Positions 27,105 to 64,000 of a stretch of 64,000 nucleotides of DNA are shown here, in pieces (position 1 is the first letter of the stretch; each line of letters starts with the position of its first letter). Both the position numbers and the translations under genes were made by a program. The stretch is from Vitis vinifera (taxonomy: Eukaryota; Streptophyta; Magnoliopsida; Vitales; Vitaceae): assembly GCF_030704535.1 (NCBI RefSeq), contig NC_081817.1:23809001-23873000 (forward strand), in the 5' to 3' direction. The notes below the pieces were generated by a model. The model saw only the letters and a program-made list of their open reading frames with translations, was not told where the DNA came from and ran no database searches.

Positions 27105-28303
27105 TAATTAACAAATTTTCTTCAATAACTATCCTTGACTCATGCTGATTTTCTTATATTCAAATCCATTAAATCAAAGGAAAATACTAAAGTACCATAG
27201 TGGTACCTATCGAACAAAAAATTTACATTATTAAATATGATTAATGGTGAGATCTAGACTATTAAATAATTGTATGAACGAATAAAATTAAGGTATAATG
27301 ATACAAATAAATGAGACTAGAATGTAAATAATAAGATTAGAAAATATATATTTAACACTACTTGATCGATGATGTCTTTTCGATAGGTATAAAAAAAAGT
27401 ACGATTCGATATACTGAAACCCCATTCAAATGTTACCATTTTTTCTCGGGATGGAAGGACAATGTTTTGTTCATCACATAATATTAGCCTGGCCCTTACG
27501 GCAAATTCTCTTTCATACGTTCAAAAACCATAACAGCCATTCATTTCATTAGAAATTCTCCAGCACAGTTTTCTTCCATGGACTTGACTTATTGATACAG
27601 AAAGTTGACCGCGACCAATCTTATGGACACCAATTTTATGAATAAAATGTAAGCTTAATCTTGTCATTATGTCATCATGCTTGCGAGCTCATTGGTTTAC
27701 CCATAATCATTCCATAGATCATATTTGTGTTTGATGTATGTATGTTAGAAGATTTAACTTAGTCTTCATGGAGCTTGAAAGTCATTTTTTATTTTTTTTA
27801 ATATTTCTAAGTTTTTTATTTGAAAGTTAGAAATTGAAAAAAAAATAAGCATTTTTTTTAATTACCATTTGATATAAATTTTTTTTCAGAAATCATTTTT
27901 TCTTTAGCAAAATATTATCAATAAAATAAATAAATAAATAAAAACCCACTTGGGTTATATCTAAATATTAAGGGTGACTGAATGCTAAAAATCCAAGAAT
28001 CCTATGCTCCAGCTTAAACAGGAAAAAGTAGTTATCTAACACATTAGGGAGGAAGAGGTCTCATCTGAGCGAGGCTGATGGAAACTGGTCATCGAAGCAG
28101 TCAACACGGTTGTCATTTAGTGAGGTTTTACCAAAATGAGAAGCCCATGAAATTTTCCTGCTCCTGGGGTTCTCACCATTGAAAACTACACAATCCATGG
28201 AAACCACGTTCAAAATTTCTACGACCATTAGCTAGCACAACATAAACCATTTCTTCTGGATCTGTTGTACAATTTGGGACTGATTTCTGCAAAGTAACTA
28301 ACC
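27105..28303 (+). repeat. Duplicated 5' flank and promoter of NLR-1
   Basis: This flank aligns with 60235-61349 upstream of NLR-3, starting around 'tcaataactatcc(t)tgac' and continuing to the start codon, with frequent substitutions and indels. The W-box TTGACC at about 27614-27619 is shared with the other copy. The last 80 bp before the ATG are almost identical between the two genes and form the likely 5' leader. Confidence 0.8.
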
Positions 28304-31300: not shown

Positions 31301-32476
31301 CTTGAAAGTATAGATATCTGGCAGTGCCATGGACTTGTATCCTTGGAGGAGCAAAGGCTGCCGTGCAATCTCAAACATTTGAAAATAGAAAACTGTGCTA
31401 ACCTGCAGAGGCTGCCTAATGGTCTGCAACGTCTCACATGTCTTGAAGAGTTGTCATTACAGAGTTGCCCCAAACTGGAGTCATTTCCAGAGATGGGCTT
31501 GCCACCGATGCTGAGAAGTCTCGTGCTGCAGAAATGCAACACTCTGAAGTTACTACCTCATAATTACAACTCAGGTTTCCTTGAATATTTGGAGATTGAA
31601 CACTGCCCATGCCTCATTAGCTTTCCAGAAGGTGAGCTGCCTGCCTCACTTAAGCAACTGAAGATCAAGGATTGTGCAAATCTACAGACTCTGCCAGAGG
31701 GAATGACGCACCACAATTCTATGGTTAGCAACAACTCTTGTTGTCTTGAAGTCTTGGAGATCAGAAAATGTTCATCCCTTCCATCCCTTCCAACAGGCGA
31801 GCTACCCTCCACCCTTAAGCGGCTTGAGATATGGGACTGCAGGCAATTTCAACCAATTTCAGAGAAGATGCTGCACAGCAATACTGCACTTGAACATTTG
31901 TCCATTTCCAATTATCCAAACATGAAAATCCTTCCAGGATTCCTCCACAGTCTCACGTATCTCTATATATATGGTTGTCAAGGTCTTGTGTCCTTTCCAG
32001 AAAGGGGCTTGCCCACTCCCAATCTCAGAGACCTTTATATTAACAACTGTGAGAACCTGAAGTCCCTTCCTCATCAAATGCAGAACCTTTTATCTCTTCA
32101 AGAACTGAATATTAGGAATTGTCAGGGCTTGGAGTCATTTCCAGAATGCGGTTTGGCCCCCAACCTTACTTCGCTCTCAATCAGAGATTGTGTGAATCTG
32201 AAGGTGCCATTATCTGAATGGGGCCTCCACAGGCTCACTTCTCTTTCATCACTGTACATTTCCGGTGTATGTCCAAGTCTGGCATCTCTTTCAGATGATG
32301 AGTGTCTTCTTCCTACAACTCTGAGCAAACTTTTTATCAGTAAGCTGGATTCCCTGGTCTGTCTGGCTCTCAAAAACCTCTCTTCCCTTGAAAGGATATC
32401 CATCTACAGATGCCCTAAGCTCCGGTCCATTGGGCTGCCTGAAACGCTATCAAGACTTGAAATAAGGGATTGCTAA
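28304..32476 (+). CDS. NLR-1: CC-NBS-LRR disease-resistance protein (RPP13-like protein 1 class)
   Basis: Intronless open frame of 1390 residues. Residues 1-100 are an Rx_N-type coiled-coil with the EDVID-like YDVEDILDDF (77-86). The NB-ARC domain (~180-515) contains P-loop GMGGVGKTT (211-219), RNBS-A FDLRAWVCVSDDFD (234-247), kinase-2 KKFLLVLDDVW (283-293), RNBS-B KVIITTRN (315-322), GLPLVAKALGG (378-388), CFAYCAIFPKGYEF (435-448) and MHD (501-503). From ~550 to the end are many leucine-rich repeats. All nucleotide-binding motifs look intact, so it should act as an ATP/ADP-switch immune receptor in the cytoplasm, with ligand specificity in the LRRs (family knowledge). The protein ends at LEIRDC, whereas NLR-2 continues for 32 more residues, and the DNA after the stop is not homologous to that tail. 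The start is fixed by conservation with NLR-2 and NLR-3. Confidence 0.95.
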   Translation: MAFVGEAFLSASIQKLVDMLACPDLRKFAREEQVHAELKKWEGILLKIHAVLHDAEEKQMTNRFVQIWLAELRDLAYDVEDILDDFATEALRRNLIKDDPQPSTSTVRSLISSLSSRFNPNALVYNLNMGSKIEEITARLHEISTQKGDLDLRENVEGRSHRKRKRVPETASLVVESRVYGRETDKEAILEVLLRDELIHDNEVCVIPIVGMGGVGKTTLAQLAYNDDRVKNHFDLRAWVCVSDDFDVLRITKTLLQSIASYTREINDLNLLQVKMKEKLSGKKFLLVLDDVWNENYDKWDSLCTPLRAGGPGSKVIITTRNMGVATLTRTVSPYLLQELSNDDCRAVFAQHALGARNFEAHPHLKIIGEEMVNRCRGLPLVAKALGGILRNELNHEAWDDILKSKIWDLPEEKSGVLPALKLSYHHLPSHLKQCFAYCAIFPKGYEFKKDELILLWMGEGFLQQTKGKKRMEDLGSKYFSELLSRSFFQQSSNIMPRFMMHDLIHDLAQSIAGNVCLNLEDKLENNENIFQKARHLSFIRQANEIFKKFEVVDKGKYLRTFLALPISVSFMKSLSFITTKVTHDLLMEMKCLRVLSLSGYKMSDLPSSIDNLSHLRYLNLCRSSIKRLPNSVGHLYNLQTLILRDCWSLTEMPVGMGNLINLRHLDIAGTSQLEEMPPRMGSLTNLQTLSKFIVGKGNGSSIQELKHLLDLQGELSIQGLHNVRNTRDAMDACLKNKCHIEELTMGWSGDFDDSRNELNEMLVLELLQPQRNLKKLTVEFYGGPKFPSWIGNPSFSKMESLTLKNCGKCTSLPCLGRLSLLKALRIQGMCKVKTIGDEFFGEVSLFQPFPCLESLRFEDMPEWEDWCFSDMVEECEGLFSCLRELRIRECPKLTGSLPNCLPSLAELEIFECPKLKAALPRLAYVCSLNVVECNEVVLRNGVDLSSLTTLNIQRISRLTCLREGFTQLLAALQKLVIRGCGEMTSLWENRFGLECLRGLESIDIWQCHGLVSLEEQRLPCNLKHLKIENCANLQRLPNGLQRLTCLEELSLQSCPKLESFPEMGLPPMLRSLVLQKCNTLKLLPHNYNSGFLEYLEIEHCPCLISFPEGELPASLKQLKIKDCANLQTLPEGMTHHNSMVSNNSCCLEVLEIRKCSSLPSLPTGELPSTLKRLEIWDCRQFQPISEKMLHSNTALEHLSISNYPNMKILPGFLHSLTYLYIYGCQGLVSFPERGLPTPNLRDLYINNCENLKSLPHQMQNLLSLQELNIRNCQGLESFPECGLAPNLTSLSIRDCVNLKVPLSEWGLHRLTSLSSLYISGVCPSLASLSDDECLLPTTLSKLFISKLDSLVCLALKNLSSLERISIYRCPKLRSIGLPETLSRLEIRDC

Positions 32477-34799: not shown

Positions 34800-35231
34800 G
34801 TAAAAAGCTGCCATTTTCCCTATCTTCTTATGGTCTTCTCTAATGGGCATTAGTTCACATTTCACCTCACGAATATGAACTCAGAAGAGCAGCCCATGTG
34901 CGGCATTTTCAACATACCAACCCTGTCGACCAACCGAGAATAAGTCCAAGGACATCCACTAAAGGTCTCACATTTTGTATTTTTGTGACTGGAACAGTCA
35001 CTTTCCATCGTTCAGACCGTCTGGACCGTCACTTCCACGGAATTCATTGCCGTATTTCGTATTTCCAAATACTTTTCTTCTGAAGAGTTGCAGACTTCCC
35101 CTAATCATTTTTTAGCTACAAACTTTTCTTCTGAAGAATATCTAATATCTTACAGATCTGTTGCAGAGAGTTCCCTTAATCAATCCCTTGTTACCCACAA
35201 GAAAAGAAAAAAAAAAGAAAAAGGAGAAAAC
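34800..35231 (+). promoter_or_regulatory. Upstream region and leader of NLR-2
   Basis: Contains a perfect 7-bp inverted repeat GTGACTG-gaa-CAGTCAC (34985-35001), then 'gaccgtctggaccgtca', a direct repeat of gaccgtc. A purine-rich run (about 35203-35229) ends at the start codon. This flank does not resemble those of NLR-1 and NLR-3. An ATG at 35088 is in frame with NLR-2 and would add 48 residues; family alignment places the start at 35232. Confidence 0.45.
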
Positions 35232-38200
35232 ATGGCTGGTTTTGTTGGAGAAGCCGTTTTTTCTGGGTTCATTCAGAAGTTGGTCAACATGGTCGCCTCG
35301 CCGGAGCTCTGGAAGTACGCATGTGAAGAGCAAGTGGATTCTGAGCTGAACAAGTGGAAGAAAATATTGATGAAGATCTACGCAGTGCTCCATGACGCAG
35401 AGGAGAAGCAGATGACAAACCCCCTGGTGAAGATGTGGCTACACGACGTCAGAGACTTGGCTTATGATGTGGAGGACATCTTGGACGACTTCGCCACCCA
35501 AGCTTTGCGACGCAACTTGATCGTGGCTCAACCCCAACCGCCCACTGGTACCGTTCGGAGCGTTTTATCTTATGTGTCTACTAGTCTCACTTTGAGTGCT
35601 GCTTGGTCCAATTTAAGTATGGGTTCCAAGATAGAGGAGATCACTGCCAGATTACAAGATATTTCAGCCCAAAAAAGGCAACTGGATTTAAGAGATATTT
35701 CTGCAGGTTGGTCTGGTAGAAAGAGACTACGGAGACTGCCATCCACTTCTTTGGTGATTGAATCTCGTATTTATGGCAGGGAAACAGATAAAGCTGCCAT
35801 ACTTGCCATGCTGCTCAAGGATGATCCAAGTGATGATGAAGTCTGCGTGATCCCTATCGTCGGCATGGGAGGTATAGGCAAAACTACTCTTGCTCAACTT
35901 GCGTTTAATGACAATAAAGTGAAGGATCATTTTGATTTGCGAGCTTGGGTCTGTGTTTCCGATGATTTTGATGTTTTGAGGGTGACCAAAACTATTCTGC
36001 AATCACTTTCTCCACATACACGTTATGCCAACAATCTTAATTTGCTTCAGATTGAGCTCAGGGAGAAACTTTACCGGAAGAAATTTCTTCTTATCTTGGA
36101 CGACGTTTGGAATGAGAATTTTGATGAATGGGATATTTTGTGCATGCCGATGAGAGCCGGAGCGTCAGGTAGTAAGCTTATTGTCACAACCCGTAATAAA
36201 GGGGTTGTATCTGTTACCGGAACTTGTTCAGCTTATCCCCTTCAGGAGTTATCATATGATGATTGTCTATCTTTATTCACCCGACATGCATTAGGGGCAA
36301 GAAACTTTGATGCTTATCCACACCTGAAAGAAGTTGGAGAGGAGATAGTCAGAAGGTGCAAAGGCCTGCCTTTGGCAGCAAAGGCGCTTGGTGGCATGTT
36401 GCGCAATCAACTAAATCGCAGAGCATGGGAAGATATATTAACAAGCAAGATATGGGATCTCCCGGAGGAGAAAAGTCATATTCTTCCGGCTCTCAAGCTA
36501 AGCTACCATCATCTTCCTTCTCATTTGAAGCGGTGTTTTGCTTATTGCTCGATATTTCCAAAAGACTATGAATTCGACAAAGATGAATTAATCCTATTAT
36601 GGATGGCAGAAGGTTTTCTGCAACAAACAAAGGGAGAGAACCAGCCTGAGAAGTTAGGTTGTGAGTACTTTGATGATTTATTCTCAAGGTCATTTTTTCA
36701 ACAATCAACTCAAAATTCATCCCAATTTTTAATGCATGATCTTGTTAACGATTTAGCACAATCTATTGCTGGAGACATATGCTTTAATTTGGACGATGAG
36801 TTAGAGAATAATAAGCAATCCACGGCTGTTTCAGAGAAGGCTCGTCATTTGTCATTCAATCGTCAACGTTATGAGATGATGAGAAAATTCGAAGCGTTTC
36901 ATAAGGCTAAGTGTTTGCGGACGTTAGTTGCTTTGCCACTCACTACTTTTTCTACATATTTCATTTCAAGTAAGGTGCTAGATGACCTTTTAAAAGAAAT
37001 GAAATGTTTGCGGGTATTGTCATTAAGCGGTTATTTCATAAGTGAGATGTTACCAAATTCCATAGGTGGTTTGAAACATCTGCGCGCGCTATTTGAATTT
37101 ATCTGATTCTTTGATGAATAGGTTACCCGATTCAGTGGGTCATCTTCATAATTTGCAAACACTGATATTACGCAATTGCTATAGACTTGTTGAGTTGCCT
37201 ATGGGAATTGGAGGCCTCATCAACCTTCGACATGTTGATATTTCTGGTGCAGTTCAACTACAGGAGATGCCCCCTCAAATGGGAAACTTAACCAATTTGC
37301 AAACATTATCCGACTTTATTGTGGGCAAAGGTAGCAGGTCGGGTATCAAAGAATTAAAGAATTTGTTGGGTCTCCAAGGAAAGCTTTCCATTTCAGGGTT
37401 GCATAATGTGGTAGATATTCAAGATGCAAGGAGTGTTAATTTACAGAAGAAGCAGAACATCAAAGAGTTAACACTGAAATGGAGCAGTGATTTTGGTGAA
37501 TCAAGAAATAAAATGAATGAGACGCTTGTTTTAGAGTGGCTACAACCTCATAGAAATCTGGAAAAGCTCACCATTGCATTCTATGGTGGACCAAACTTTC
37601 CAAGTTGGATAAAGAATCCCTCATTCCCTTTAATGACACACTTGGTTCTCAAGAATTGCAAGATATGCACATTGTTACCGGCTCTCGGCCAATTATCCTT
37701 ACTCAAAAACTTGCATATCGAAGGGATGAGTGAAGTTAGAACCATAGATGAGGAGTTTTATGGAGGGATTGTCAAGTCTTTTCCATCCTTGGAGTTTCTG
37801 AAGTTTGAAAATATGCCAACATGGAAAGATTGGTTTTTTCCAGATGCAGATGAACAAGTGGGACCATTTCCATTCCTTCGAGAACTTACAATAAGGAGAT
37901 GCTCAAAGCTAGGTATACAGTTGCCTTATTGCCTACCTTCTCTGGTTAAACTTGATATCTTTGGGTGTCCAAATTTGAAAGTTCCCTTTTCAGGATTTGC
38001 ATCTCTTGGTGAATTAAGTTTAGAAGAATGTGAAGGGGTGGTGTTCAGAAGTGGGGTTGGTAGTTGTCTTGAAACATTAGCTATTGGACGGTGTCACTGG
38101 CTTGTAACGTTGGAGGAGCAAATGCTACCTTGCAAACTTAAAATTTTGAAAATACAAGACTGTGCTAACCTGGAGGAGCTGCCAAACGGATTGCAAAGTC

Positions 38201-39276
38201 TCATTTCTCTCCAAGAGTTGAAATTAGAGAGGTGCCCCAAACTGGTTTCATTTCCAGAGGCCGCTTTGTCACCCTTGCTCAGATCTCTGGTGCTGCAGAA
38301 CTGCCCATCTCTCATATGCTTTCCAAATGGTGAGCTGCCCACCACGCTCAAGCATCTGAGGGTTGAAGATTGTGAAAATTTGGAGTCTCTACCAGAGGGA
38401 ATGATGCACCACAAGTCCTCTTCCACTGTAAGCAAAAACACTTGTTGCCTTGAAAAATTGTGGATAAAGAATTGTTCCTCTCTCAAGTTCTTTCCAACAG
38501 GGGAGTTACCCTCCACCCTTGAGCTCCTTTGTATTTGGGGATGTGCAAACTTGGAGTCAATGTCAGAGAAAATGTCACCCAATGGCACAGCTCTTGAATA
38601 TTTAGACATAAGGGGCTATCCAAATCTGAAAATCCTACCAGAATGCCTTACAAGCCTCAAGGAGCTCCACATAGAAGATTGTGGAGGTCTGGAGTGTTTT
38701 CCAAAAAGAGGGTTGTCCACCCCCAACCTCAGGCACCTTCGTATTTGGAGATGTGTGAATCTCAGGTCCCTTCCGCATCAAATGAAAAACCTCACATCTC
38801 TTCACGTTCTCAGCATACGGGGTTGTCCAGGAGTGGAGTCCTTTCCAGAAGCGGGCTTGCCCGCCAATCTAACATCACTTTATGTTGGATGGTGTGAGAA
38901 TCTGAAAAAACCCATATCTGAATGGAGCCTCTATACCTTCACCTCTCTTTCTGCATTGACCATTTGTAGAGTGTTTCCCAATATGGCTTCTTTTTCGGAT
39001 GAAGAGTGTCTGCTTCCTCCATCTCTGACCTATCTTTCCATCAGTGAACTGGAATCTTTAACCTCCATGGCTCTCCAAAATCTGGTGTCTCTAAAAGAAC
39101 TAGCTTTTTATTGGTGCCGCAAGCTCAGGTCCTTGGAGCTGCCTGCAACACTTGGAAGACTTGAAATCAGTGATTGTCCTATAATAAAAGAAAGCTGCTC
39201 AAAGGAGAAGGGAGGATATTGGCCCAACATCGCCCACATCCCCTGCATTCAAATAGATGGCTCATACATCCATTGA
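35232..39276 (+). pseudogene. NLR-2: CC-NBS-LRR gene broken by a 4-bp frameshift
   Basis: Paralogue of NLR-1. The first frame (35232-37106) encodes 624 residues: Rx_N coiled-coil with YDVEDILDDF, P-loop GMGGIGKTT (211-219), kinase-2 KKFLLILDDVW, GLPLAAKALGG, CFAYCSIFPKDYEF, an MHD-type LMHDL motif and the first LRRs. After codon 618 the frame is lost and stops six codons later. The LRR region continues without further damage in the +1 frame, from about 37090 to 39276, ending in the family-typical tail (PNIAHIPCIQIDGSYIH). The cause is TGCGCGCGCT at 37081-37090, where the paralogues imply TGCGCT, i.e. two extra GC units (4 bp). Everything else is intact, so this is either a recent null allele, a truncated CC-NBS protein gene or an assembly error. 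Unbroken length would be about 1346 residues. Confidence 0.9.
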
Positions 39277-45889: not shown

Positions 45890-45894
45890 ATAAC
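45890..45894. repeat. Target-site duplication ATAAC, left copy
   Basis: ATAAC abuts the 5' LTR and is repeated exactly at 57080-57084 after the 3' LTR, marking one integration event. Confidence 0.9.
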
Positions 45895-46360
45895 TGATAG
45901 AATAAATATGGACCGACATCATATTAACCATTGTTCAGGATTTAGCTATCTGTTTATATACGATTTCTAGTTGATCTAGAGTATGGGCCACCTAATATGT
46001 AGAGCTCAATGCTATCACGAGCCTTAGATGATGGGCCTAAGACTCGTGAGGCCCAATAACCCAATGGGTATAGTTCCTAAGGCAGGAGGGTATAAAAATA
46101 GGGTGAGGCTTTTGTCTGTTCTATTATTTTATCGCATCTTTTGAAACAAACATCTTTTGAACAAAAGGAACCTGTTCTCTCCCACTCCCATTGTCATAGA
46201 GAATCCAGTTAGAGGTGGCACCCTCTACAACCTTTGAAGATCCATACTTTTTCATCAAAAGCACAAAATGGATTCAAGTTGGTTCTCTATCTAGTGATTG
46301 TTGTTGAATATATCCAGTATCTGTGTGTTTGGTGTTAATGGAGAATATTGAAGTTTAACA
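45895..46360 (+). repeat. 5' LTR of the copia element
   Basis: 466 bp, begins TGATAGAA and ends TTTAACA (TG...CA). It contains a TATA box, TATAAAAA, at 46091-46098, the likely promoter of the genomic transcript. It matches 56613-57079. Confidence 0.92.
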
Positions 46361-46363
46361 ATT

Positions 46364-46375
46364 TGGTATCAGAGC
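46364..46375 (+). other. Primer-binding site
   Basis: TGGTATCAGAGC, three bases after the LTR, is the classic complement of the 3' end of initiator tRNA-Met used to prime reverse transcription in plant copia elements. Confidence 0.92.
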
Positions 46376-46439
46376 CCAAGGTTCCGATTCCATTTTCACC
46401 AAAAACAATCTTAAAAAAAAAAAATAAAAAAAGAGTATT

Positions 46440-47030
46440 TAAGGCGTTGTTACAAGCCTCCTTATAGGCGTTCAGATGTCGTTCAAGGGCCATCCGACGC
46501 CGTTCAGACGCCGTTTAGAGGCGTCGTTTCAGGCGCCGTTCAGGTGCCATTCAAGGCGCACCTCAGCCACCATTCTGACATTGTTTAGGCCCGATTTAGA
46601 GGCGTTGCAGCGACGTCTTTCAGGCGATGTTCTGATGCCGTTTAGGCGCAATTGGAGGCGCTACAGGCATCCGTTCTAGGCACCATTCAAGAGTCATCTT
46701 AGTTTCAAGCTACGCTGGCGATTCCAATCCACAACGTCACTGTTCTGGTGCCATTTCTAGCAAAATGGTGGCATCTTCCTTATGATGCCACTTGTAGGAA
46801 CGCTGCAGACATCGTCGTTTGGCGTCATTTTCCCATGAGAAGCTCAATCTCCCTGCACTATTGCAGGGTGCTGACGCTGTTCATGGGGTTTTTCGGTTGG
46901 AAATCAGAGAGGTTTAGATGTCGTTTGGCGTCGTTTTCAGTTGAAGACGCCGTTTTGAGGATAGCTCCGGCGCCATTTTGGCGCCGTTGATGATATTGCT
47001 GCCAACGTCCTTTGCTGTCATTTGGCAGTG
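46440..47030 (+). repeat. GC-rich leader with recurring GCGCCGTT-type motifs
   Basis: This patch stands out sharply from the AT-rich surroundings. Variants of (g)gcgccgtttag and gacgccgttc recur irregularly at about 12-20 bp spacing, densest at 46480-46680 and again at 46900-46990. Open frames over it (46476-46679, 46748-46990) encode only Arg/Phe-rich repeats and are probably not genes. It may be an untranslated leader or packaging region; that is inference. Confidence 0.6.
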
Positions 47031-47040
47031 CCCTTTGGTT

Positions 47041-47747
47041 GAGTAATGTAAAGAAAATATTAGAATTTTGATAGAAACCAACTTGATGGTCATGTGGAGT
47101 CTATGGGTATTTTAATTGTGTGATCAACCTACAATCCTTTCAACTACAGATCCTAAACCATAAAGTCAGTAAAAAAATGATACAAAATATTTGATAAAAT
47201 ATTGGCATGGAATATTACAAAGAAATAGGCTTTAATTATCAATAGGCCACATGCCCATTCATGGCCTAAGCCAGAATGGCTACCTTAATGACCAGTGGGC
47301 CAAACCCCCCATGCAAGCAATTTTTAAAGGAATTTTCATGGACATAACCGAACCTTTTAAAGATCACATTAAAGATAATATATATATATATATATATCAC
47401 TTGCATGCAAGAGAATAGGAGAAATAAACAAGTTCCATTTATTAATCATTTAGTTTATAAATTTCTTGGAATCCTCTTTCTCCAGAAATAGGATGGATTA
47501 ACTTGTTTTGAGCTCTTTCTTGTAAATAAATAAATTAATAACTTGCTAAATTTGTGTTTAATATTTTAAAATAAATGAATTAGGTACGTTAATTGCCAAA
47601 GTAACTTATATTATATAATTTATTTATTTTATAATATCTAAACATGTTATTATTATTATTTTAATATAATAATAAATAAAGTAGTCATAAATATGTGACA
47701 TATAATGTTTATCTTGCATTCGATATGTTAGTCCAAAGACATGCATA
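47041..47747 (+). other. Element-internal sequence of unclear origin
   Basis: AT-rich and without coding similarity. It occupies the place where gag should be and may be inserted or leader DNA. It includes a short (AT)n run near 47378-47396. Confidence 0.4.
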
Positions 47748-48587
47748 TTGTTTTCGGTTTTATTACTTCTCAATTTTGTTTGTTTAGAAATTAATTTAGT
47801 TATAATGCCTATTGACACTTGGTGGATAGATACAAGTACAACTACTCACATAAGTGTCACTATGCAGGTTTGCCTAAAGAGTCAAATGCCAACTGATGGT
47901 GAAAGATACATCTATGTGGGAAATGGCAACAAGGCTACAATAAAGGCTATTAGTCTTTTTAAATTACAGTTAGACTCTGGATGTACATTGGATTTGGAAG
48001 AGACTTTTGTGGTACCGTCGTTTAGACGAAATTTAATTTCTGTTTCATGTCTAGACAAATTTGGATATTATTGTTCATTTAGAAATGAAATGGTTAATCT
48101 TTATCTAAATTTAAATGTTATTGATACAAGTAGTCTAACAGACAAATTATACAAATTGAACATAAAGGCCACTATGAAACCTTGCATTCAAGTAATTATG
48201 GCATTAAGCGAAAATTAACGAATGAGAATTCATCAATGTTATGGCACAAGCGTTTGGGTCATATTTCAAATCAACAGATTCAAAGGCTTGTGTCAGAAGA
48301 AATTCTTGATCCATTTGATTTCTCAGACTTTCAAGTCCGTATAGAGTGCATTAAGGGTAAACAAACAAATATGAGGAAAAAGGATGCTAATAGGTGCAAC
48401 GACGTCTTGGAATTGATACATACAAACATTTGTGGTCCATTTCCTACCCCTTCTTGGAATGGACAACAATATTTTATCATTTTCATTGACGATTACTTGC
48501 GCTATGGCTATCTTTATTTGATTCATGAGAAGTCTCAATCATTGGATGTGTTCAAGAATTTCAAAGCTGAAGTTGAGAAGTGTACCT
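47748..48587 (+). pseudogene. Copia protease and integrase N-terminal part (damaged)
   Basis: The protease block reads WWIDTSTTTHIS, where the active-site D-T/S-G is changed to DTS. It continues with the family-typical FVVPSFRRNLISVSCLDKFG. After a frame change near 48190-48220 comes the GAG-pre-integrase/HHCC region LWHKRLGHIS...IECIKGK, in which one zinc-binding Cys appears replaced. The integrase core then reads LELIHTNICGPF, where the first catalytic Asp (normally HTD) is Asn. Homology stops abruptly near 48587 at FKAEVE, exactly where inverted gag sequence begins. Confidence 0.85.
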
Positions 48588-49408
48588 TTCTTTTCACGCG
48601 AAGCAACGTATTTGGTACATGTGTTCTTCATATGACCAACCTTCTTGCAAAAGAAACAAGTTATCTCCTTATCTTGTTTATTCTGCACATTTTTCTTTGA
48701 TGTCCCAGAAACTGCAATTTGTTTTCCTTTATTGTCCTTCTTTCTTTTCTTGTTGGTACCAAATCCCTGATATGTGGAAGCCAAGTGAGCACTTTCTATC
48801 TTTTCTTGTTTCAATCTCTCATTCTCTTGTACACACTAAGCAATAAGCTCATTCAAAGTCCATTTTTCCTTTTGTGTGTTGTAACTGATTTTGAATGGAC
48901 TAAATTGTGTAGGTAGAGAGATCAAGACCAAGTGCATGAGTATGTCCTCCGAAAACTCTAACTTTAGTGCCTTGAGTCTCGTCACAAGATTAGACATTTC
49001 CATAATGTACTACCTTATATTCTCTTTCCCTTTGTATCGCATGGAGACAAGCGTACTAAGAATAGTGCTTGTCTCAACCTCTTTGTTTGCAGCAAATCGA
49101 TTTGCTATCTGGTCCAAGAATGCCTTGGTTCGGGTTTCCTCAGGTATTGCACCTCTTATAGCTTCTAGAATTGAGTGCTTCATTATCATAAGACTCATGC
49201 GATTGGATCGCTCCTATTTTTCCATAGTAGACCTTTGCTCAACAGTGATGGCACTAGTAAGGTTTGGAGGGCGATCCTTTCTTTATGCATAGTCTAAATC
49301 CATGCACCCGAGCACAATTATAACGTGCTCCTTCCATTTCTTGAAGTTTGTGCCATTAAGCACAAGAATGCTATTGACATTTGCAAATATAGAAGATGTT
49401 GAATTCAT
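48580..49408 (-). pseudogene. Inverted copia gag (with CCHC zinc knuckle) lodged inside integrase
   Basis: Read on the minus strand from the ATG at 49408, it encodes a UBN2-type copia gag: LNGTNFKKWKEH near the start, AIPEETRTKAFLDQIANRF in the middle, and a zinc knuckle CFFCKKVGHMKNTC (C-x2-C-x4-H-x4-C) near 48625-48670. Four in-frame stops occur (after DYA, EK, ENIR and ELIA). Its C-terminal end (REKKGTLLN) would normally run on into the protease part that now sits upstream on the plus strand at about 47766. It therefore comes from this element family but has been moved and inverted. Confidence 0.88.
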
Positions 49409-49564
49409 AATAATAAAGCTCACAATTAGTCACATAAACATCATACATACATGAATAAATAAACATCATACAAGATACCTAGCACAAACATTAATATTCG
49501 GTGTTTGGACAAAAACATCAACTTGTAATTGACATCCTTATACAAAATTAATTCATAAATATTT

Positions 49565-49800
49565 GATGGAGTGTGGTATCGTTCCTTAATACACCATGCT
49601 AGGGACTCCAAACGAAAATGGTATAGTAGAAAGGCGAAACCGTACTCTTAAGGATATGGTAAGAAGTATGATCAATCATTCCACATTCCCAGAACCACTT
49701 TGGGGCAAAGTTGTCAAAACTGCAGTTTACATTTTGAATAGAGTCCCAAGCAAAGAAGTAGCCAAAACCCCATATGAGTTATGGACTAGCAAGAAACTTA
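49565..49800 (+). pseudogene. Copia integrase C-terminal part (up to the nested insertion)
   Basis: Homology resumes with LMECGIVP, an in-frame stop, then [18 protein letters not shown] and [19 protein letters not shown]. About 30-35 residues that should link this to the upstream part, including the second catalytic Asp (SDxGGEY region), are missing. The reading is cut by the nested insertion just after 49800. Confidence 0.85.
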
Positions 49801-49807
49801 GTATTAG

Positions 49808-52800
49808 TGTAGACCCTCAATTTTGTCCCTTTAGCACATGTCTTTAAATTCATTTTCAGTGTTCCACAGTAGTTCCTTAATGGTCCATTGCTACTCATAC
49901 TACTTACCTTTTTTGAGCCACCTCGAAGACTTTGGTTGAGGGATTTATCCAGTTCCACATTATGACCTTGGATGCCCTTCAAGTTTAGATTAGGCTCCAG
50001 TTAGGTACACTTTAGGTTGGACTTAGTTAGGCCCACCTATTCTCACCCTAGGCCCGTATAAGTATACTTAGCCCATTAGACATCACCATAAGCCTATTTA
50101 GGACACTTAGTTCACTTAGGCCCACTTAGTCCATTAATGTAGACTTAGATACCATCCTAAACATCCTAGACACCTCCCGACTTGTACACATTCACCCGAG
50201 GTCACCTAAACACTTTTTCAGAATAGGTCACTTAGACACTTCTTTTGGCATAGTTCACTTAGGCATGTTTTTTATTTTATTTTTCCGAGATAAGATGAAT
50301 ATTAGCTTGACTATATATTGCATGAAATGAAATTTTATTTTTTTATTTTTGAGGGTTTGAGTTTGACATTTAAATTATTATAATCCGTTGCATCAATTTT
50401 AAATTTTTTCTATTTTTTCTTCCTAATTGCATATGTCCAATATTTATTTTTATGCCCTTATCAATCTATTTTTTTATTTACTCAATTATTTATTCATTCT
50501 TTAATTCCATGAATTGACATCTTGGATTCTATAGCTATGTGATTTGATTTTCTACTTGATTTTATTCTACTCCTAAATAAGTGATTTTTTTCTTTGAACT
50601 TTATTTTATTTTTTATTTTTTATTTTGCATGAGAATGGGAAAACTACCAATTGGTCCTAGAGAGGAATGAGGGCTGATCATGTTGTTCTTTGAGTGGAGA
50701 AGGCACAACACTTTGGGAGCATTCAGCACGCACCCTTGAGGAATCCCAGACATGCGGCTTGCATTCTTAATCTAACCGCACCACATAAGGACAACGATTT
50801 GAATGAATTCATGCACCATTCACTCATTCTAAATAAGCAGTCTACCATGTTGCCTATAGGAAGGAAGTGGCCATTTTGTGCACAACACGCATATAGTGGG
50901 CTGTAACAGAGATTCTTTTTGTTTTTAGAAAGAAAAGTCAACATGCTTTATCACTTACCAAATAAGACACGACTGCATCCTTAGAGAAATCTCCAAGTAA
51001 GCCACACATGTATAGACTTCCTATATTCACGCGCATTTCTAGAAAGGAAACAAAGAATTCCATAGAAAGGATGGGTTGCCATATAAATATTAAAAAAAAA
51101 TGACAAAATGAATGGGGAGGAACAAATTTTTTAGGGAAGAGACACGCATAGAGAAAAATAGTCTTCGGCAAAGAAATCCACACAGAGAAAAATACTTTTG
51201 GGCAAGGAAGTTCACACGCAAAGGAGAATTTTTTGAAAGGAGGACATGCACAAGAATTTTGGGAGGAGAACAGAAGATTTCAGATGAGAAACAGGTTGCC
51301 ACTTTGATACATCTAGAGAGTCTTATTTCCGATACAACACGGGTTAGTTTTCGTTTCCGATAGAGCATATTTTTTTAGTTTAGATTTTAGTCCACTGGTT
51401 TAATTAATTCTTTGTGATAAATTCTTTTAAATATCAATTCGTACAAATCTTTTATTTTTCTTAGATTAGATTTTTTTTTTTTGTGGTTATAGTTCATTAG
51501 TTCCATGCTAGTTTATCTTAATTTATATGACAGTTTAAATAAAGTTAGTGTTTTTTTTTTAATTTCAATTAGTTTGATTTTAATTTGTTTTTAGTTTAAA
51601 TACATTTGTTGATTTTAATTCTTTAGTTTAAATAATCATATTGAATAAAGTTTGTGTTTTTAATTCCAATTAGTTTGATTTTAATTTGTTTTTAGTTTAA
51701 ATACATTTGTTGATCTTAATTCTTTAGTTTAAATAATCATATTGAATAAAGTTTGTGTTTTTAATTCCAATTGGTTTAATTTTAATTTGTTTTTAGTTTA
51801 AATACATTTGTTGATCTTAATTCTTTAGTTTAAATAATCATATTGAATAAAATTTGTGTTCTTAATTCCAATTAGTTTGATCTTAATTTGTTTTTAGTTT
51901 AAATATATTTGTTGATCTTAGTTCTTTAGTTTAAATAATCATATTGAATAAAGTTTATATTTTTAATTTCAATTAGTTTGATTTTAATTTGTTTAAATAC
52001 ATTTGTTGATCTTAATTCTTTAGTTTAAATGGTCGTATCAAATAAAGTTTGTGTTTTTAATTCCAATAATATTATTAAATAGAATTTAATTTCAATTTAG
52101 TTTGATTTTAATTTATTTTATAATTTGAATGCGTTCATGATTTTAATTCAATTGTTTAATTAACCCTCTTAGACAAATCCCATATTTTTAATTTCGATTT
52201 TAGTTTAATTTTATTTTTTTAATTAATTTATTTGTTTAAATATATTTGCAATTTCAATTTGATAGTTTAGCCAATCTTATTAGATGATGTTAATGTTTCT
52301 GATTTAATCTAATGTCAATTATTTTTAGTATTGGATGTGTTTGTGCGTTTCTAAATTCGTTAATTTTGATTTTAATCCATTTATATCCAATTTAGTAGTT
52401 GATCACAATTTTAGTTAATTAATTTAGTCAATCACATGATATCATATTCACATTTTAAGTATGAAAATTTCATATTTGATTTGTCAATATTTAGTATGAG
52501 TTTTTTTGGATAATCAATCTAGTTCATTGCATGTTATTGTTTTCATATTTTCAAGTTTGCTAAACTTTGGTTTTTTTTTTTTTAATTTATCATATTTTGT
52601 TAGAGTGCTAATTTACTTTAATTGATTCCACATTATTGTCTCCATATGCTAAATTTGTTGACTTTAATCCTCGATTGTTCTTTTCTATCATGTGTTTCTT
52701 GAAATCTAGATGTTAGTTTTGGATAATATTTGTGTTAGTTTGTTTGATTAGGAAATCATTAGTTTGACGCATTAGTGATTGTTGGTTAAATATTTTTTTT

Positions 52801-54075
52801 AGGACCATTGGAAACCCATGAAGGTTGGCCCTATTCTCATCAGTTTAATTGACATGATTTTCAAAATCTTTATTTTGTGATCTTCGTTCCCTTTTTTTTT
52901 ATTGATATTTTGTTTTCTATGTTTTGTTATTTTAAAAAAAATTAATTTCTTTTATTTTAAAACAAAAATACTTTTCTCAAAAGATTCCTTTAAAAATCTA
53001 TTTCAAAAACTCATTTAGAGTCTTCAGGATCAAAATCTCTTCTTTTTTTTTAAAATAATGTGCAACCATATCTTGATCGGTTTGCATCTTTCTTGGTTTT
53101 AATTTAATGAAAATTTTGGTTTCGAACAAAACACAAACCAAAGCTTCTGGCCTCAAATAAATGGGATAATTCTAGGCTAAATTCATGTATATTAATTTGG
53201 GGAATTGGTGAAACCCCTACATAAGAAAATCTTTTCAATACTTATTTTTGCTACCACTCTTTCCATTTGTCTTAATCATATCTATCTATTTTTTTAGGAA
53301 TTATATACAAGATGCGTGTGATACTTGATTATTTTGTACATTTTGAATCATTTTTTCTATGCTAATTAGATATGCATGTTAGGATTTCTTGTTTTATTAT
53401 TTATTAATTAACCCCTCATGCCCTGAGGAAGCGAATTACGAGTTATCTATGCTATCTAGGTACGTCCCCTATCACCTACTTTCTAAATTCTGTAAATATG
53501 ATTGTCATTGTGAACTATGCATATGTTTGACAATGCTTAGGTGCTTTGATATATTTGTTTCATTGTTCAATCATTTATGATAAAACGCATGTTGGGTGAT
53601 ATATTATTTAAACTAACCATTGATGTTTTATGATAGTGCTCAAGAAGTGGTCTAGGTACGCACCCTAAATCTTTTATATGATTATGATTGGTTTTCTTGT
53701 TAGGCATGTTATTTTTTAAATCACCTAGCCTTCTATAGTTAACCGATTAATTGCCACATTTCCCTCAACTTAGTCAGTAGAGACCTTTGTAGGGCTTAGA
53801 GGGGTACTACCTTTTAGAGGTATATTTGTTGCCAATAAGTAACCTGATCTCCGGACTTAGACTCGAGTTTTTCAAAGACATGTTTTTTCCAAAGACATGT
53901 TTTTTCCAAAAAATTATGGAGTCATTTTTTAAGGTTTTATTTCTTGCTTTATTTTCCTTTTCAAAAATAAAATAAAATAAGTGGTGACTCCGACTTTTCC
54001 AAAAATTATTTTTTCACAAATAAAAGTGAGTCTTGCTAATCGAGTGGGGGCACACGTGAAAAATACGGGTCCACA
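49808..54075 (+). mobile_element. Nested 4.27-kb solo-LTR-like insertion with ATTAG target duplication
   Basis: It interrupts copia pol: text before (YELWTSKK) and after (RHLHVWGCP) is contiguous in the family. The insert starts TGTAGACCC and ends GGGTCCACA, imperfect inverted TG...CA ends, and is flanked by direct ATTAG at 49803-49807 and 54076-54080. No gag/pol coding sequence, primer site or internal second LTR is recognised, so a solo LTR of a large-LTR gypsy-type element (Tat/Ogre-like ends) is the best guess; a non-autonomous derivative is the alternative. Open frames inside are short and unrelated to known proteins. Confidence 0.75.
51540..52075. repeat. ~100-bp tandem repeat array inside the nested element
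   Basis: Five head-to-tail copies of a unit of about 101 bp (…gttgatcttaattctttag, then tttaaataatcatattgaat…), the anchor starting near 51608, 51709, 51810, 51911 and 52002. The central copies are nearly identical and the outer ones degenerate. AT-rich and non-coding. Confidence 0.85.
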
Positions 54076-54080
54076 ATTAG

Positions 54081-55611
54081 GCACTTGCATGTCTGGGGTT
54101 GTCCAACTGAAGCTAGGCCTTACAAGCCAAATGAAAAGAAATTAGACTCCAGATAGTGAGCTGCTACTTTGTAGGGTATTCTGAAATGTCAAGAGGTTTC
54201 AAATTTTATGACCCCTCAACTAGATCTTTCTTTGAAATGGGTAATGCTAAGTTCATTGAGGATGTTGAGTTAAGTGGGAGAGAGCCATTAAGAAAGGTGA
54301 TCTTTGAAGAGGAATTTGTTAATATTCCTATTATTATGACTGGACATGGTCATATTATGTTTGATGACACTATTCAAAATGTACATTCGATAATAGAGAT
54401 TCCTCCTGCTCAAGTTATGGAACTGATTCAAGTTCATGAAGAGGTAACTCAACAACCTCAAGAACCTCAAGTACAAGTGCCACTGAGGAGATCCACTAGA
54501 GAAAGGAGAAGTACAATTTCATATGATTATGTTGTATATATCCAAGAACATGAGTTTGACATGGGTCTGGAAGACGATCCAATTTAAATTAGTCAAGTCA
54601 AACAAAGTTCTGACTTTGAAAAGTGGATAAAAGCCATGAAGGATAAGATGAAATCAATGAAGGACAATGGTGTTTGGGACCTAGTAGAGTTGCCTGGAGG
54701 TGTAAAGCTGATTGGTTGTAAATGGATTTTTAAGACCAAGCGGGATTCAAAAGGCAACATTGTTAGATATAAGGCACGCCTAGTCGCAAAAGGTTTCACT
54801 CAAAAGGAAGGCATTGATTATAAGGATACTTTTTCACCGGTTTCATCAAATGACTCCTTTAGAATCATCATGGCACTTGTAACTCATTATGATTTAGAGC
54901 TACATCAAATGGACGTTAAAACTATGTTTCTTAATGGCAATACGGATGAGACAATATACATGGTGCAACCGGAGAACTTTGAGTCTAATGATTCAAAGCA
55001 ACCTGTATGCAGATTAAAAAGGTCTATATATGGTTTAAAGCAAGCATCCCGACAATGGTACCGAAAGTTTGATCAGGTGATTACTTCATTTGGTTTTAAG
55101 GAGAACACCGTTGATCAATGCATATACCTCAAGTTCAGTGGGAGCAAATTCATTATCTTGGTGTTATATGTTGATGATATTCTTCTTGCAAGTAGTGATG
55201 TGGGACTTTTGCATGAAACCAAGCGATTTCTATCTAGTAAATTTGACATGAAGGATCTTGGTGATGCATCTTTTGTATTGGGTATACAGATCCATAGGGA
55301 TCGTTCAAGAGGTATTCTTGGGCTATCACAAAAGGCTTACATCGATAAAGTGTTGAGTAGATTTGGCATGAGTAATTGTGCATTAGGAAACACGCCTGTG
55401 GCAAAAGGCGATAAATTTAGTTTGCACCAATGTCCGAAAAATGAACTTAAGAAGAAGGATATGGAGAGGTTTCCCTATGCCTCGGTAGTAGGAAGTCTCA
55501 TGTATGCACAAGTTTGTACGCATCCGGATATTGTGTACATTGTTGGAATGTTAGGTAGATATTTGAGTAACCTAGGTATGGATCACAGGAAAAAGGCAAA
55601 ACGGGTTATGT
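54081..55611 (+). pseudogene. Copia reverse transcriptase region
   Basis: Resumes after the insertion with RHLHVWGCPTEARPYKPNEKK, then a linker frame (54156-54587) and a stop (TAA at about 54585). The reverse transcriptase follows (54636 on): WKWIFKTKRDSKGNIVRYKARLVAKG-type start written across 54715-54790, MDVKTMFLNG and the catalytic YVDD (LYVDDILLASSD). The RT core itself is open, but the reading ends at a TAG at about 55611, where the family reads through. Confidence 0.88.
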
Positions 55612-56159
55612 AGTATTTACAAAGAACTAAAGATTACATGCTCACATATTGTAGATCCAGTCATTTAGAGATCGTGGGATATTCTGACTCCAATTTCGCG
55701 GGATGTCTTGAACGCAAGAGATCCACTTCAGGCTACATCTTCATGTTGGCTGGAGGAGCAATTTCATGGAAAAGTGTTAAACAAACACTTATTGCTTCTT
55801 CCACCATGGAGGTAGAATTCATAGCTTGCTACGAAGCATCAAACCATGGGATATGGCTACGAAATTTTGTCACTCAATTGCGAATCGTTGATGGGATTGA
55901 GAAGCCATTGCGAATCAATTGTGATAATAAGGTCGCAGAATTGTATACTAAGAACAACCGAAGTTCATCAAAGTCTAAACACATTGACATCAAGTTCTTG
56001 GTTGTGAAAGAAAGAGTTCAGAGTCTTCAAGTATCGATTGAACACATAAGCACAAACTCCATGATTGCGGATCGACTCACTAAGGGTTTGCCACCCAAAG
56101 TATATCATGAGCACATCACACATATAGGTGTTGTACACATTGATGATGTGCTAGTATAG
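55612..56159 (+). pseudogene. Copia RNase H region
   Basis: Continues in frame after the TAG: YLQRTKDYMLTY, then RNase H blocks YSDSNFAGC (the second Asp of the usual DSDFAG is Asn), STSGYIFMLAGGAISWKS, TLIASSTMEVEF and KHIDIKF. It ends at a stop at 56157-56159. Needed for RNA strand removal in reverse transcription; here it is separated from RT by a nonsense codon. Confidence 0.85.
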
Positions 56160-56601
56160 TTGGAGTTTGTATTTAGATTTTGTGTTTATTTTCTTGATGT
56201 GATATTATGTTGTGTTATCTGTACAGACCTTGATTTTAAAGATTATTGTATTTATATTCTCTGAATTGAAATGATGACTTTCAGAAGCAGTTTAGCATCA
56301 AGTGTTGAAAGTGGTATTTGACTATTTTTAGTTGTAAAGTAGGATCAATTGGAAATAGACATAGTAAAGATCACATTCTATGTAATTTCCATGCTACACA
56401 TCCATACTTGATCCATGTTGCTAATTTTGTTAATGTTGTGATCATTGATTGGTTTAGTTATGATTATGATTAACGAAGGCCGCTTTAATCCTATGCTAAC
56501 ATAATTAGTAGACCGGAATGTTTAAGGATATTTGAATAGGATAGCAAAGATGAGCTCAATAAGGTACTATCATGAATATTGTTTTGTAATATATGTGGTC
56601 T

Positions 56602-56611
56602 AAGTGGGAGA
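56602..56611 (+). other. Polypurine tract
   Basis: AAGTGGGAGA lies immediately upstream of the 3' LTR (56613), the position expected for plus-strand priming. Confidence 0.85.
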
Positions 56612-56612
56612 T

Positions 56613-57079
56613 TGATAGAATAAATGTGGACCGACATCATATTAACCATTGTTCAGGATTTAGCTATCTGTTTATATATGATTTCTAATTGATCTAGAGT
56701 ATGGGCCACCTAATGTGTAGACCCCAATGCCATCACGGGCCTTAGATGATGGCCCTAAGACTCGTGAGGTGTAATAGCCCAATGGGTATGGTCCCTAAGG
56801 TAGGAGGGTATAAAAATAGGGTGAGGCTTTTGTCTGTTCTATTATTTTATCGCATCTTTTGGAACAAACATCTTTTGAAACAAAATGAACCTGTTCTCTC
56901 CCACTCCCATTGTTAGAGAGAATTCAGTTAGAGGTGGTGCCCTCCACAGCCTTAGAAGATCCATACCTCTTCATCAAAAACACAAAATGGATTCAGGTTG
57001 GTTCCCTATCCGGTGATTGTTGTTGAATATATCATGTATCTATGTGTTTGGTTTTAATGGAGAATATTGAGGTCTAACA
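56613..57079 (+). repeat. 3' LTR of the copia element
   Basis: 467 bp, begins TGATAGAA, ends TCTAACA, with TATAAAAA at 56809-56816. It is followed by the ATAAC target duplication (57080-57084). Confidence 0.92.
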
Positions 57080-57084
57080 ATAAC

Positions 57085-61349: not shown

Positions 61350-64000
61350 ATGGCTTTTGTTGGAGAGGCCTTTCTATCTGCTTCCATTCAGAAGCTGGTC
61401 GACATGTTGGCCTGCCCCGACCTCCGGAAGTTCGCCCGCGAAGAACAAGTCCACGCCGAGCTCAAGAAGTGGGAGGGAATACTGCTGAAAATCCATGCAG
61501 TGCTTCATGATGCTGAGGAGAAGCAGATGACCAATCGGTTCGTGCAGATATGGTTAGCCGAGCTCAGAGACTTGGCCTATGATGTTGAGGACATCTTGGA
61601 CGACTTCGCCACCGAAGCTTTACGGCGCAAGCTGATCACAGATGATCCTCAGCCAAGTACTAGTACGGTGCGCAGCATCATCTCCTCCTTGTCTTCTCGT
61701 TTCAATCCAAATGCTTTAGTGTATAATCTCAATATGGGGTCTAAGTTAGAGGAGATTACTGCAAGATTACATGAGATTTCCACCCAAAAGGGTGACCTGG
61801 ATTTGAGAGAGAATGTTGAAGAGAGATCCAACAGGAAGAGAAAAAGAGTCCCTGAAACAACTTCTCTGGTGGTTGAGTCTCGTGTTTATGGCAGGGAAAC
61901 TGATAAAGAGGCGATACTTGAAGTGCTGCTGAGGGATGAATCGATTCATGATAATGAAGTCTGCGTGATTCCTATAGTCGGCATGGGAGGTGTCGGCAAA
62001 ACTACCCTTGCCCAGCTTGCCTACCACGACGACAGAGTGAAGAATCATTTTGATCTGAGGGCTTGGGTTTGTGTTTCTGATGATTTTGATGTTTTGAGGA
62101 TAACAAAAACGCTTCTACAGTCAATTGCTTCTTACGCCCGTGAGATCAATGATCTAAACTTGCTTCAAGTCAAGCTGAAAGAGAAATTGTCTGGAAAGAA
62201 GTTTCTGCTTGTTCTAGATGATGTCTGGAACGAGAACTATGACAAATGGGATAGGTTGTGCACCCCTTTACGAGCAGGGGGACCCGGCAGTAAGGTTATC
62301 ATCACTACTCGCAACATGGGTGTCGCCTCACTTACCAGAACGGTTTCGCCTTACCCCCTGCAGGAGCTGTCAAATGATGATTGTCGAGCTGTGTTCGCGC
62401 AGCATGCATTGGGAGCAAGGAACTTTGAAGCTCATCCGCACGTGAAAATAATTGGAGAGGAAATGGTGAACAGATGCAGGGGCTTGCCTTTGGTCGCAAA
62501 GGCCCTGGGAGGCATCTTGCGAAATGAACTAAACCATGAGGCATGGGACGATATATTGAAGAGTAAGATATGGGATCTACCAGAAGAGAAAAGTGGTGTT
62601 CTTCCAGCTCTCAAATTGAGCTATCATCACCTCCCATCTCATCTGAAGCAGTGCTTTGCTTACTGCGCTATTTTTCCCAAGGGATATGAATTCAAAAAGG
62701 ATGAATTAATCCTTTTATGGATGGGAGAAGGATTTCTGCAAACAAAAGGGAAGAAGCGAATGGAGGACTTAGGTTCCAAATACTTCTCAGAGTTGTTATC
62801 AAGGTCATTCTTTCAACAATCAAGTGACGTAATGCCGCGATTCATGATGCATGATCTCATCCATGATCTGGCTCAATCCATTGCCGGAAATGTATCTTTC
62901 AATTTGGAGGATAAGTTGGAGAATAATGAGAATATTTTTCAAAAGGCTCGCCATTTGTCATTCATTCGTCAGGCCAATGAGATCTTCAAAAAATTTGAAG
63001 TTGTCGATAAAGGGAAGTATCTTCGAACTTTTCTAGCTTTACCCATTAGTGTATCATTTATGAAAAGTTTGTCATTCATAACTACGAAGGTGACACATGA
63101 CCTCTTAATGGAAATGAAATGCTTACGGGTACTATCTTTAAGTGGCTATAAGATGAGTGAGCTGCCGAGTTCAATTGATAATTTGAGTCATCTACGATAT
63201 CTCAATCTATGTCGCTCTTCAATTAAAAGGTTACCTAATTCAGTAGGTCATCTGTATAATTTACAAACCTTAATATTACGAGATTGTTGGAGTCTCACTG
63301 AGATGCCTGTGGGGATGGGAAATTTAATCAACCTTCGACATCTTGATATTGCAGGGACAAGTCAATTAGAAGAGATGCCCCCACGAATGGGCTGCCTGAC
63401 AAATTTGCAAACATTGTCTAAGTTTATTGTGGGAAAAGGTAACGGGTCGAGCATACAAGAATTGAAGCACTTGTTGGATCTTCAAGGAGAACTTTCCATT
63501 CAAGGATTGCATAATGTGAGAAATACTCGAGATGCAGTGGATGCTTGTTTAAAGAATAAGTGCCACATTGAAGAACTAACAATGGGATGGAGTGGTGATT
63601 TTGATGATTCACGAAATGAATTGAATGAAATGCTTGTGCTCGAGTTGCTACAACCTCAAAGAAATCTGAAAAAGCTCACAGTTGAGTTCTATGGAGGACC
63701 GAAATTCCCAAGCTGGATAGGGAATCCTTCATTCTCAAAAATGGAGTCCCTGACCCTTAAAAATTGTGGAAAATGCACATCGCTACCATGTCTTGGACGA
63801 CTATCTCTACTCAAAGCCTTGCGCATTCAAGGAATGTGTAAAGTTAAAACCATAGGTGATGAATTTTTTGGGGAGGTCTCTCTTTTCAAGCCTTTTCCAT
63901 GCTTGGAGTCTCTAAGGTTTGAGGATATGCCAGAATGGGAAGACTGGTGTTTTTCTGATATGGTTGAGGAATGTGAAGGATTATTTTCTTGCCTTCGAGA
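61350..64000 (+). CDS. NLR-3: CC-NBS-LRR protein, 3' end beyond the window
   Basis: Residues 1-883 are visible and open, with no stop or frameshift. It is a near-identical paralogue of NLR-1: same Rx_N coiled-coil with YDVEDILDDF, P-loop GMGGVGKTT, kinase-2 FLLVLDDVW, GLPLVAKALGG, CFAYCAIFPKGYEF and MHDL, then LRRs. By eye roughly 25-30 residues differ, including loss of one Gln in GFLQ(Q)TKGKK near 463 (a clean 3-bp deletion at about 62739). The LRR part visible here is the most similar (about ten nucleotide differences between 63000 and 64000). Role as for NLR-1: a cytoplasmic nucleotide-switch immune receptor. Start chosen by alignment with NLR-1. Confidence 0.93.
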   Translation, partial: MAFVGEAFLSASIQKLVDMLACPDLRKFAREEQVHAELKKWEGILLKIHAVLHDAEEKQMTNRFVQIWLAELRDLAYDVEDILDDFATEALRRKLITDDPQPSTSTVRSIISSLSSRFNPNALVYNLNMGSKLEEITARLHEISTQKGDLDLRENVEERSNRKRKRVPETTSLVVESRVYGRETDKEAILEVLLRDESIHDNEVCVIPIVGMGGVGKTTLAQLAYHDDRVKNHFDLRAWVCVSDDFDVLRITKTLLQSIASYAREINDLNLLQVKLKEKLSGKKFLLVLDDVWNENYDKWDRLCTPLRAGGPGSKVIITTRNMGVASLTRTVSPYPLQELSNDDCRAVFAQHALGARNFEAHPHVKIIGEEMVNRCRGLPLVAKALGGILRNELNHEAWDDILKSKIWDLPEEKSGVLPALKLSYHHLPSHLKQCFAYCAIFPKGYEFKKDELILLWMGEGFLQTKGKKRMEDLGSKYFSELLSRSFFQQSSDVMPRFMMHDLIHDLAQSIAGNVSFNLEDKLENNENIFQKARHLSFIRQANEIFKKFEVVDKGKYLRTFLALPISVSFMKSLSFITTKVTHDLLMEMKCLRVLSLSGYKMSELPSSIDNLSHLRYLNLCRSSIKRLPNSVGHLYNLQTLILRDCWSLTEMPVGMGNLINLRHLDIAGTSQLEEMPPRMGCLTNLQTLSKFIVGKGNGSSIQELKHLLDLQGELSIQGLHNVRNTRDAVDACLKNKCHIEELTMGWSGDFDDSRNELNEMLVLELLQPQRNLKKLTVEFYGGPKFPSWIGNPSFSKMESLTLKNCGKCTSLPCLGRLSLLKALRIQGMCKVKTIGDEFFGEVSLFKPFPCLESLRFEDMPEWEDWCFSDMVEECEGLFSCLR

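Follow-up and report, generated by a model that had tools for sequence, protein, structure and literature searches.

How does the gag gene of a Copia retrotransposon come to lie backwards inside integrase? The question is raised by the window, by which we mean the whole stretch of 64,000 nucleotides of Vitis vinifera DNA that was analysed (G000:C13:23809001-23873000). The element at 45895-57079 is an old, dead Copia copy with its gag flipped inside integrase, and the scramble probably arose via ordinary error-prone repair of DNA breaks. The coordinates are collected in Table 1.

Table 1. Features of the rearranged Copia element and its junctions, in window coordinates.
Feature	Position	Strand	Remarks
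Left target-site duplication	45890..45894		ATAAC
5' LTR	45895..46360	+	TGATAG...TAACA
Primer-binding-site-like start, then 5' leader	46361..47764	+	TTTGGTATCAGAGC
Junction J1, leader to gag/protease boundary	47764..47765		no microhomology
Protease and integrase N-part	47765..48579	+	Pol_BBD, gag_pre-integrs
Junction J2, integrase to reversed gag end	48570..48579		10-bp microhomology AAGTTGAGAA
gag with its own leader, inverted	48570..49563	-	ATG at 49408 (minus); CCHC knuckle
Junction J3, reversed gag leader to integrase	49557..49563		7-bp microhomology AAATATT
Integrase C-part, first piece	49557..49807	+	
Solo-LTR-like insert, 4268 bp	49808..54075		TGTAGACCC...GGGTCCACA; flanking ATTAG at 49803-49807 and 54076-54080
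Integrase remainder, reverse transcriptase (RVT_2), extra reading frame at RNase H position	54076..56159	+	
3' LTR	56613..57079	+	
Right target-site duplication	57080..57084		ATAAC

The first-pass annotation had claimed a single outer element, and the LTR pair together with the 5-bp ATAAC on both flanks bears this out. The paired LTRs have TG...CA ends, and integrase precedes reverse transcriptase on the plus strand (gag_pre-integrs, an integrase core fragment below its cut-off, RVT_2), as in Copia elements. The exception is gag, which in Copia lies upstream of pol on the same strand and here occupies the minus strand inside integrase; the element is a rearranged Copia descendant, not an intact member. 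Its primer-binding-site-like start presumably fits the initiator Met tRNA, and the right part of the 5' leader, for the most part downstream of 47527-47676, matches that of other copies at 74-93%. The two LTRs differ at 39 of 466 aligned sites (K2P 0.090), which at the LTR dating rates of 1.3e-8 and 2.5e-9 corresponds to an age of about 3.5 to 18 million years. The LTRs and the target duplication would date the outer insertion only, and a scramble before or after integration would appear equally compatible with them.

The order previously read from the sequence, with protease and the integrase N-part on the plus strand, gag on the minus strand and the integrase C-part again on the plus strand, is upheld by Pfam and by BLAST against copies in the usual order. 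On the plus strand Pfam reports Pol_BBD (2.4e-10), gag_pre-integrs (6.5e-16) and, at 54588-55613, reverse transcriptase (RVT_2, 2.7e-78), as well as an integrase core fragment (rve_3, 0.0011) that at 19.1 bits lies well under the cut-off of 26.5. On the minus strand Retrotran_gag_2 (6.5e-06, 26.1 bits) falls just under its curated cut-off of 27, and the CCHC knuckle (4.7e-04, 20.6 bits) just under 20.8; the extra reading frame where RNase H would lie has no Pfam match. In a PDB search the integrase N-part had a single matching chain, 7z0h (‘Integrase’, E 2.5e-4), which we take to be the integrase of Ty1, and the C-part reached the same chain at 0.014, after a designed protein (0.0012) and beside retroviral integrases; the missing 100 bp sit between these two parts matching the Ty1-type integrase. 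A search of viral contigs with the reverse transcriptase returned no relative, in a set from which records close to the Vitis vinifera genome may be absent. Two blocks turned out to be more complex than annotated. The gag is inverted as described, and its block also carries ~155 bp upstream of the ATG (49409-49563); the integrase C-part is on the plus strand as described, and is broken a second time by the 4268-bp insert. The element is dead because the inverted gag frame holds four stop codons, the block of protease and integrase N-part changes frame between 48134 and 48218, and 100 bp of integrase are missing.

Copies in the usual order allow the junctions to be read to the base. BLAST places L002 604-833 at window 47562-47764 (+), 837-1831 at 49563-48570 (reversed), 1820-2641 at 47765-48579 (+), 2742-2992 at 49557-49807 (+) and 2988-3315 at 54076-54402 (+), with L002 2642-2741 absent from the window element; therefore the blocks before and after the gag/protease boundary have been swapped, and the first one flipped. 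The ends are reciprocal in L002: gag runs from 837 to 1831, next to a leader piece that stops at 833 and a protease piece that begins at 1820. The gag C-terminus had been claimed to adjoin the protease start, and since the gag end and the start of the pol block do agree within 12 bp, a single segment was flipped and moved. Breakpoints estimated at 47750, 48585 and 49565 are refined by comparison with the usual-order copies to J1, J2 and J3 of Table 1, and the 30-35 integrase residues thought to be missing correspond to a loss of 100-101 bp, about 33 codons, between the integrase side of J2 and J3.

Of the 23 loci scored for J2, 22 have the 10-bp microhomology and L002 has 7 bp; at J3, the 7 bp are present in 24 of 25 loci and L018 has 1 bp. 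The integrase loss reads 91 instead of 101 in L018, and the outlying values of this locus are probably a motif mis-hit. This tally covers 25 loci, of which L010 and L022 give no J2 value, the exact motif being absent; it excludes the window itself (L001), L003 and L025 (match stops before either side of the integrase gap), L009 (a different scramble), L030 and L031 (duplicates of loci already sampled) and L032-L042. Among two million random inverted junctions drawn from one normal copy, L008, minus overly close pairs, microhomology of at least 7 bp occurred at a rate of 6.5e-4 and of 10 bp at 3.4e-5, and blunt direct junctions were common (0.53). Two of the three junctions (10 and 7 bp) hence carry microhomology beyond chance, as in microhomology end joining, and the third carries none.

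Whether the inverted gag is the element's own segment can be judged from its divergence, because a newly captured, typical gag would look younger than the rest of the element. The comparisons were limited to loci with more than 90% of gag and protease kept, i.e. 24 of 28 for distances and 33 of 39 for alleles. The p-distance between the window and 24 loci is 0.068-0.085 in gag and 0.064-0.085 in protease plus integrase N-part, and these loci differ among themselves by a mean of 0.029 in gag and in protease alike; the integrase C-part of the window is 8.6-11.5% diverged from other loci, and the next piece 4.0-11.4%. Compared with the majority, the window differs at 67 of 975 gag sites (20 private) and at 49 of 793 protease sites (11 private). 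Sharing of the window's minority alleles is correlated between gag and protease (Spearman 0.67 over 33 loci, with a p-value that ignores relatedness), and L010, L022, L033, L035, L036, L037, L038 and L040 share them in both blocks. The same coefficient is 0.77 for protease and the integrase C-part, 0.75 for protease and the SH3-like part, and 0.66 for gag and the SH3-like part. L032 is a counter-case, sharing 0.32 with the window's protease and 0.11 with its gag. Plain distances from the window to the 24 loci should be interpreted with some caution, since gag and protease correlate weakly (Spearman 0.38 at p 0.07), the window's gag paired with the protease of another copy gives 0.35-0.44 in 7 of 24 cases, and the values for the 24 other copies range from -0.09 to 0.67. 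The allele-sharing count over 33 loci was clearer than the distance correlation over 24, which was too weak for a decision. Because gag and pol are equally diverged and their minority alleles are mostly common to the same copies, the inverted gag is very probably the element's own segment; together with the reciprocal ends this agrees with the first-pass annotation, which had described gag as inverted into the element's own integrase.

The genome (495,616,077 bases, 21 contigs) was searched with window 48400-48900, for which 41 matches were listed, with 40 of 320 candidates scored. One of these is the window itself, 38 fall singly in other places, and two lie together in one place on C14; each of the 39 places outside the window was retrieved and mapped by BLAST. 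As far as the matches reach, 38 of the 39 have leader, gag and protease arranged and oriented as usual (the match to the window ends early in L003 and L025, and L034 has the usual order with a small part of protease missing). Looking for the same junctions elsewhere had been proposed as a check, and for the one near 48585, our J2, the result was 0 of 39 other places among the matches listed (40 of 320 candidates scored). A copy with J2 would be expected to lead the ranking of this search, although only 40 of the 320 candidates were scored.

The only exception among the 39 listed places is L009 on C14, with a different scramble. In this locus (L009/L031, G000:C14:7926000-7942000) a block of LTR, leader, gag and protease is followed by integrase in opposite orientation, and an LTR start (TGTTAAG) is fused to a 100-bp integrase fragment, a structure resembling a possible self-integration product. 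It was considered as a second copy of J2 and rejected: both halves of the query matched on the same strand, yet gag lies between leader and protease, and J1, J2 and J3 are absent. Other irregular copies were seen as well. An LTR-like stretch nearly abuts gag in L042 (G000:C11:10695420-10698820), where the leader is absent. The distance from leader to protease is ~530 bp longer in L021 (G000:C5:8403370-8406770; 1510 vs 980), with extra sequence within gag and window 49326-49449 matched twice. L030 (G000:C19:22975000-22984500, reverse complement 5045-7082) has a head-to-tail repeat of ~1020 bp near a Copia leader, 92.6% identical.

The best reading of these data, to which we assign a probability of roughly 0.6, is three breaks and one flipped re-insertion through microhomology end joining. 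The block order, the junctions with their microhomology, and the equal age of gag and pol, mostly of one subfamily, are read directly from the alignments; from these we infer a single event, its repair pathway and its timing. One old Copia insertion, or its cDNA, would have been broken three times, before the gag leader, at the gag/protease boundary and in integrase. The ~980-bp gag piece would have been freed, flipped and rejoined within the integrase gap, and the leader end ligated to the protease block; two of the three joins would have used microhomology (10 and 7 bp) and the third would have been blunt, at the cost of ~100 bp of integrase. Such microhomology joins are as in polymerase-theta-type end joining. 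Microhomology end joining is reported in Arabidopsis after irradiation (PMC11712536), and the pathway is therefore available to plants. Three-break repair is the simplest account of the reciprocal ends, simpler than two inversions or template switching. Besides the weak distance correlation, the counter-case L032 and the deviating values of L018 and L002, it is opposed by the lack of microhomology at J1 and by an overlap of 2 to 12 bp between the ends at the gag/protease boundary. Either the break there was staggered, or the 10 bp derive from the inverted pair TTCTCAACTT/AAGTTGAGAA, which is the outcome of an inversion.

Two successive inversions, one of the two mechanisms that the first-pass annotation had offered, are possible although unlikely. 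A first inversion, between the 10-bp inverted repeats at the gag/protease and integrase breakpoints, would have turned protease and integrase N-part round, and a second, between the breakpoint before the gag leader and integrase, would have turned gag together with the flipped block. An inversion keeps the 10 bp on both sides, and in this respect it explains most of the overlap at the gag/protease boundary better than three-break repair does; moreover, AAATATT at J3 lies within near-palindromic sequence. However, the second inversion would need a break precisely where the first one ended on the right, thus reusing one breakpoint, with ~100 bp lost from one flank and nothing from the opposite flank, and no intermediate was found among the 39 other places listed (40 of 320 candidates scored). 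Template switching, the other mechanism offered, fits less well and is rather improbable. A polymerase, either particle-borne reverse transcriptase or that of a replication fork, would have jumped from before the gag leader to the gag/protease boundary, copied protease and integrase N-part, switched strand at the 10 bp, copied gag backwards and returned at the 7 bp. Microhomology is indeed present at both strand switches, but the skipped and the reverse-copied segments must happen to agree at either end to about 3-12 bases. For grasses, template switching has been put forward as the origin of other complex LTR insertions, although these, in the accessible part of the report, are fused elements with a common LTR and without inversions (PMC1950507). 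About equally improbable is a scramble in cDNA before integration, with particles integrating internally inverted, end-joined cDNA; the C14 locus (L009) would be a second case, and the form could possibly have moved in trans.

A foreign gag fragment, inserted inverted into integrase, with independent loss of the original gag from the outer element, is very improbable. The family is abundant, its 320 first-look candidates meaning that donors exist, and capture of nearby DNA during repair is known (PMC2671141), but the ends of the inverted block are the ends of the missing segment, and the divergence and most subfamily alleles agree with the outer element. Moreover, neither end of the block carries an LTR, and on these grounds a separate nested element was rejected as the source of gag. 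An assembly error could be imagined in a high-copy family, but is hardly credible here, where the three junctions are clean, lie within about 1.8 kb and all belong to one and the same old, diverged copy; the grapevine assembly is described as gap-free, with 494.87 Mb on 19 chromosomes (PMC10199708).

The 4268-bp insert in integrase is separate and specific to the window copy, because all 37 other listed places that reach this point run from window 49807 directly to 54076 (L003 and L025 stop short). It has TG...CA ends, the ATTAG duplication, a longest stop-to-stop frame of 113 aa and an AT-rich tandem array of five 101-bp copies (51556-52067). Judged from these features it would be most like a long solo LTR, outside the rearrangement. 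Elsewhere the window contains long open frames at 28298-32476, 34989-39276 and 61767-62114, which we take to be of the NBS-LRR class; minus-strand frames at 28721-29068 and 61767-62114 are nearly identical, which suggests a duplicated gene cluster.

The element resembles the Ty1/Copia LTR retrotransposons of plants, here represented by L002-L008, L010-L029 and L032-L042, in its LTRs, 5-bp duplication, gag, protease, integrase and reverse transcriptase, and differs from them in the gag inverted in integrase, the ~100 bp of integrase gone, the second insert and the stop codons. With repair-mediated capture, as far as the accessible text of PMC2671141 goes, it shares a nearby segment set in a break and microhomology or small losses at the joins; the captured DNA there is duplicated and proximal pieces measure at most 619 bp, whereas the gag of the window moved uncopied and spans ~980 bp. 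Complex LTR insertions of the Triticeae likewise have an unusual interior within one LTR pair and one target duplication, but they fuse two elements with a third LTR, and inversion of a coding block is absent from the portion available (PMC1950507). At title and abstract level, in a partial literature, we found no description of an inverted gag inside a Copia integrase, and printed cases may exist.

In conclusion, the window element shows a known type of damage with unusual clarity and does not imply a new type of element. Taken alone, it is one dead copy. Its value lies in being a readable three-break local rearrangement, for which abundant normal copies provide the unbroken reference, so that every junction is legible to the base and comparable with chance. 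A genome-wide survey on this basis could show how frequently short segments are moved and flipped during break repair in plants, and whether this takes place in the chromosome or in retrotransposon cDNA.
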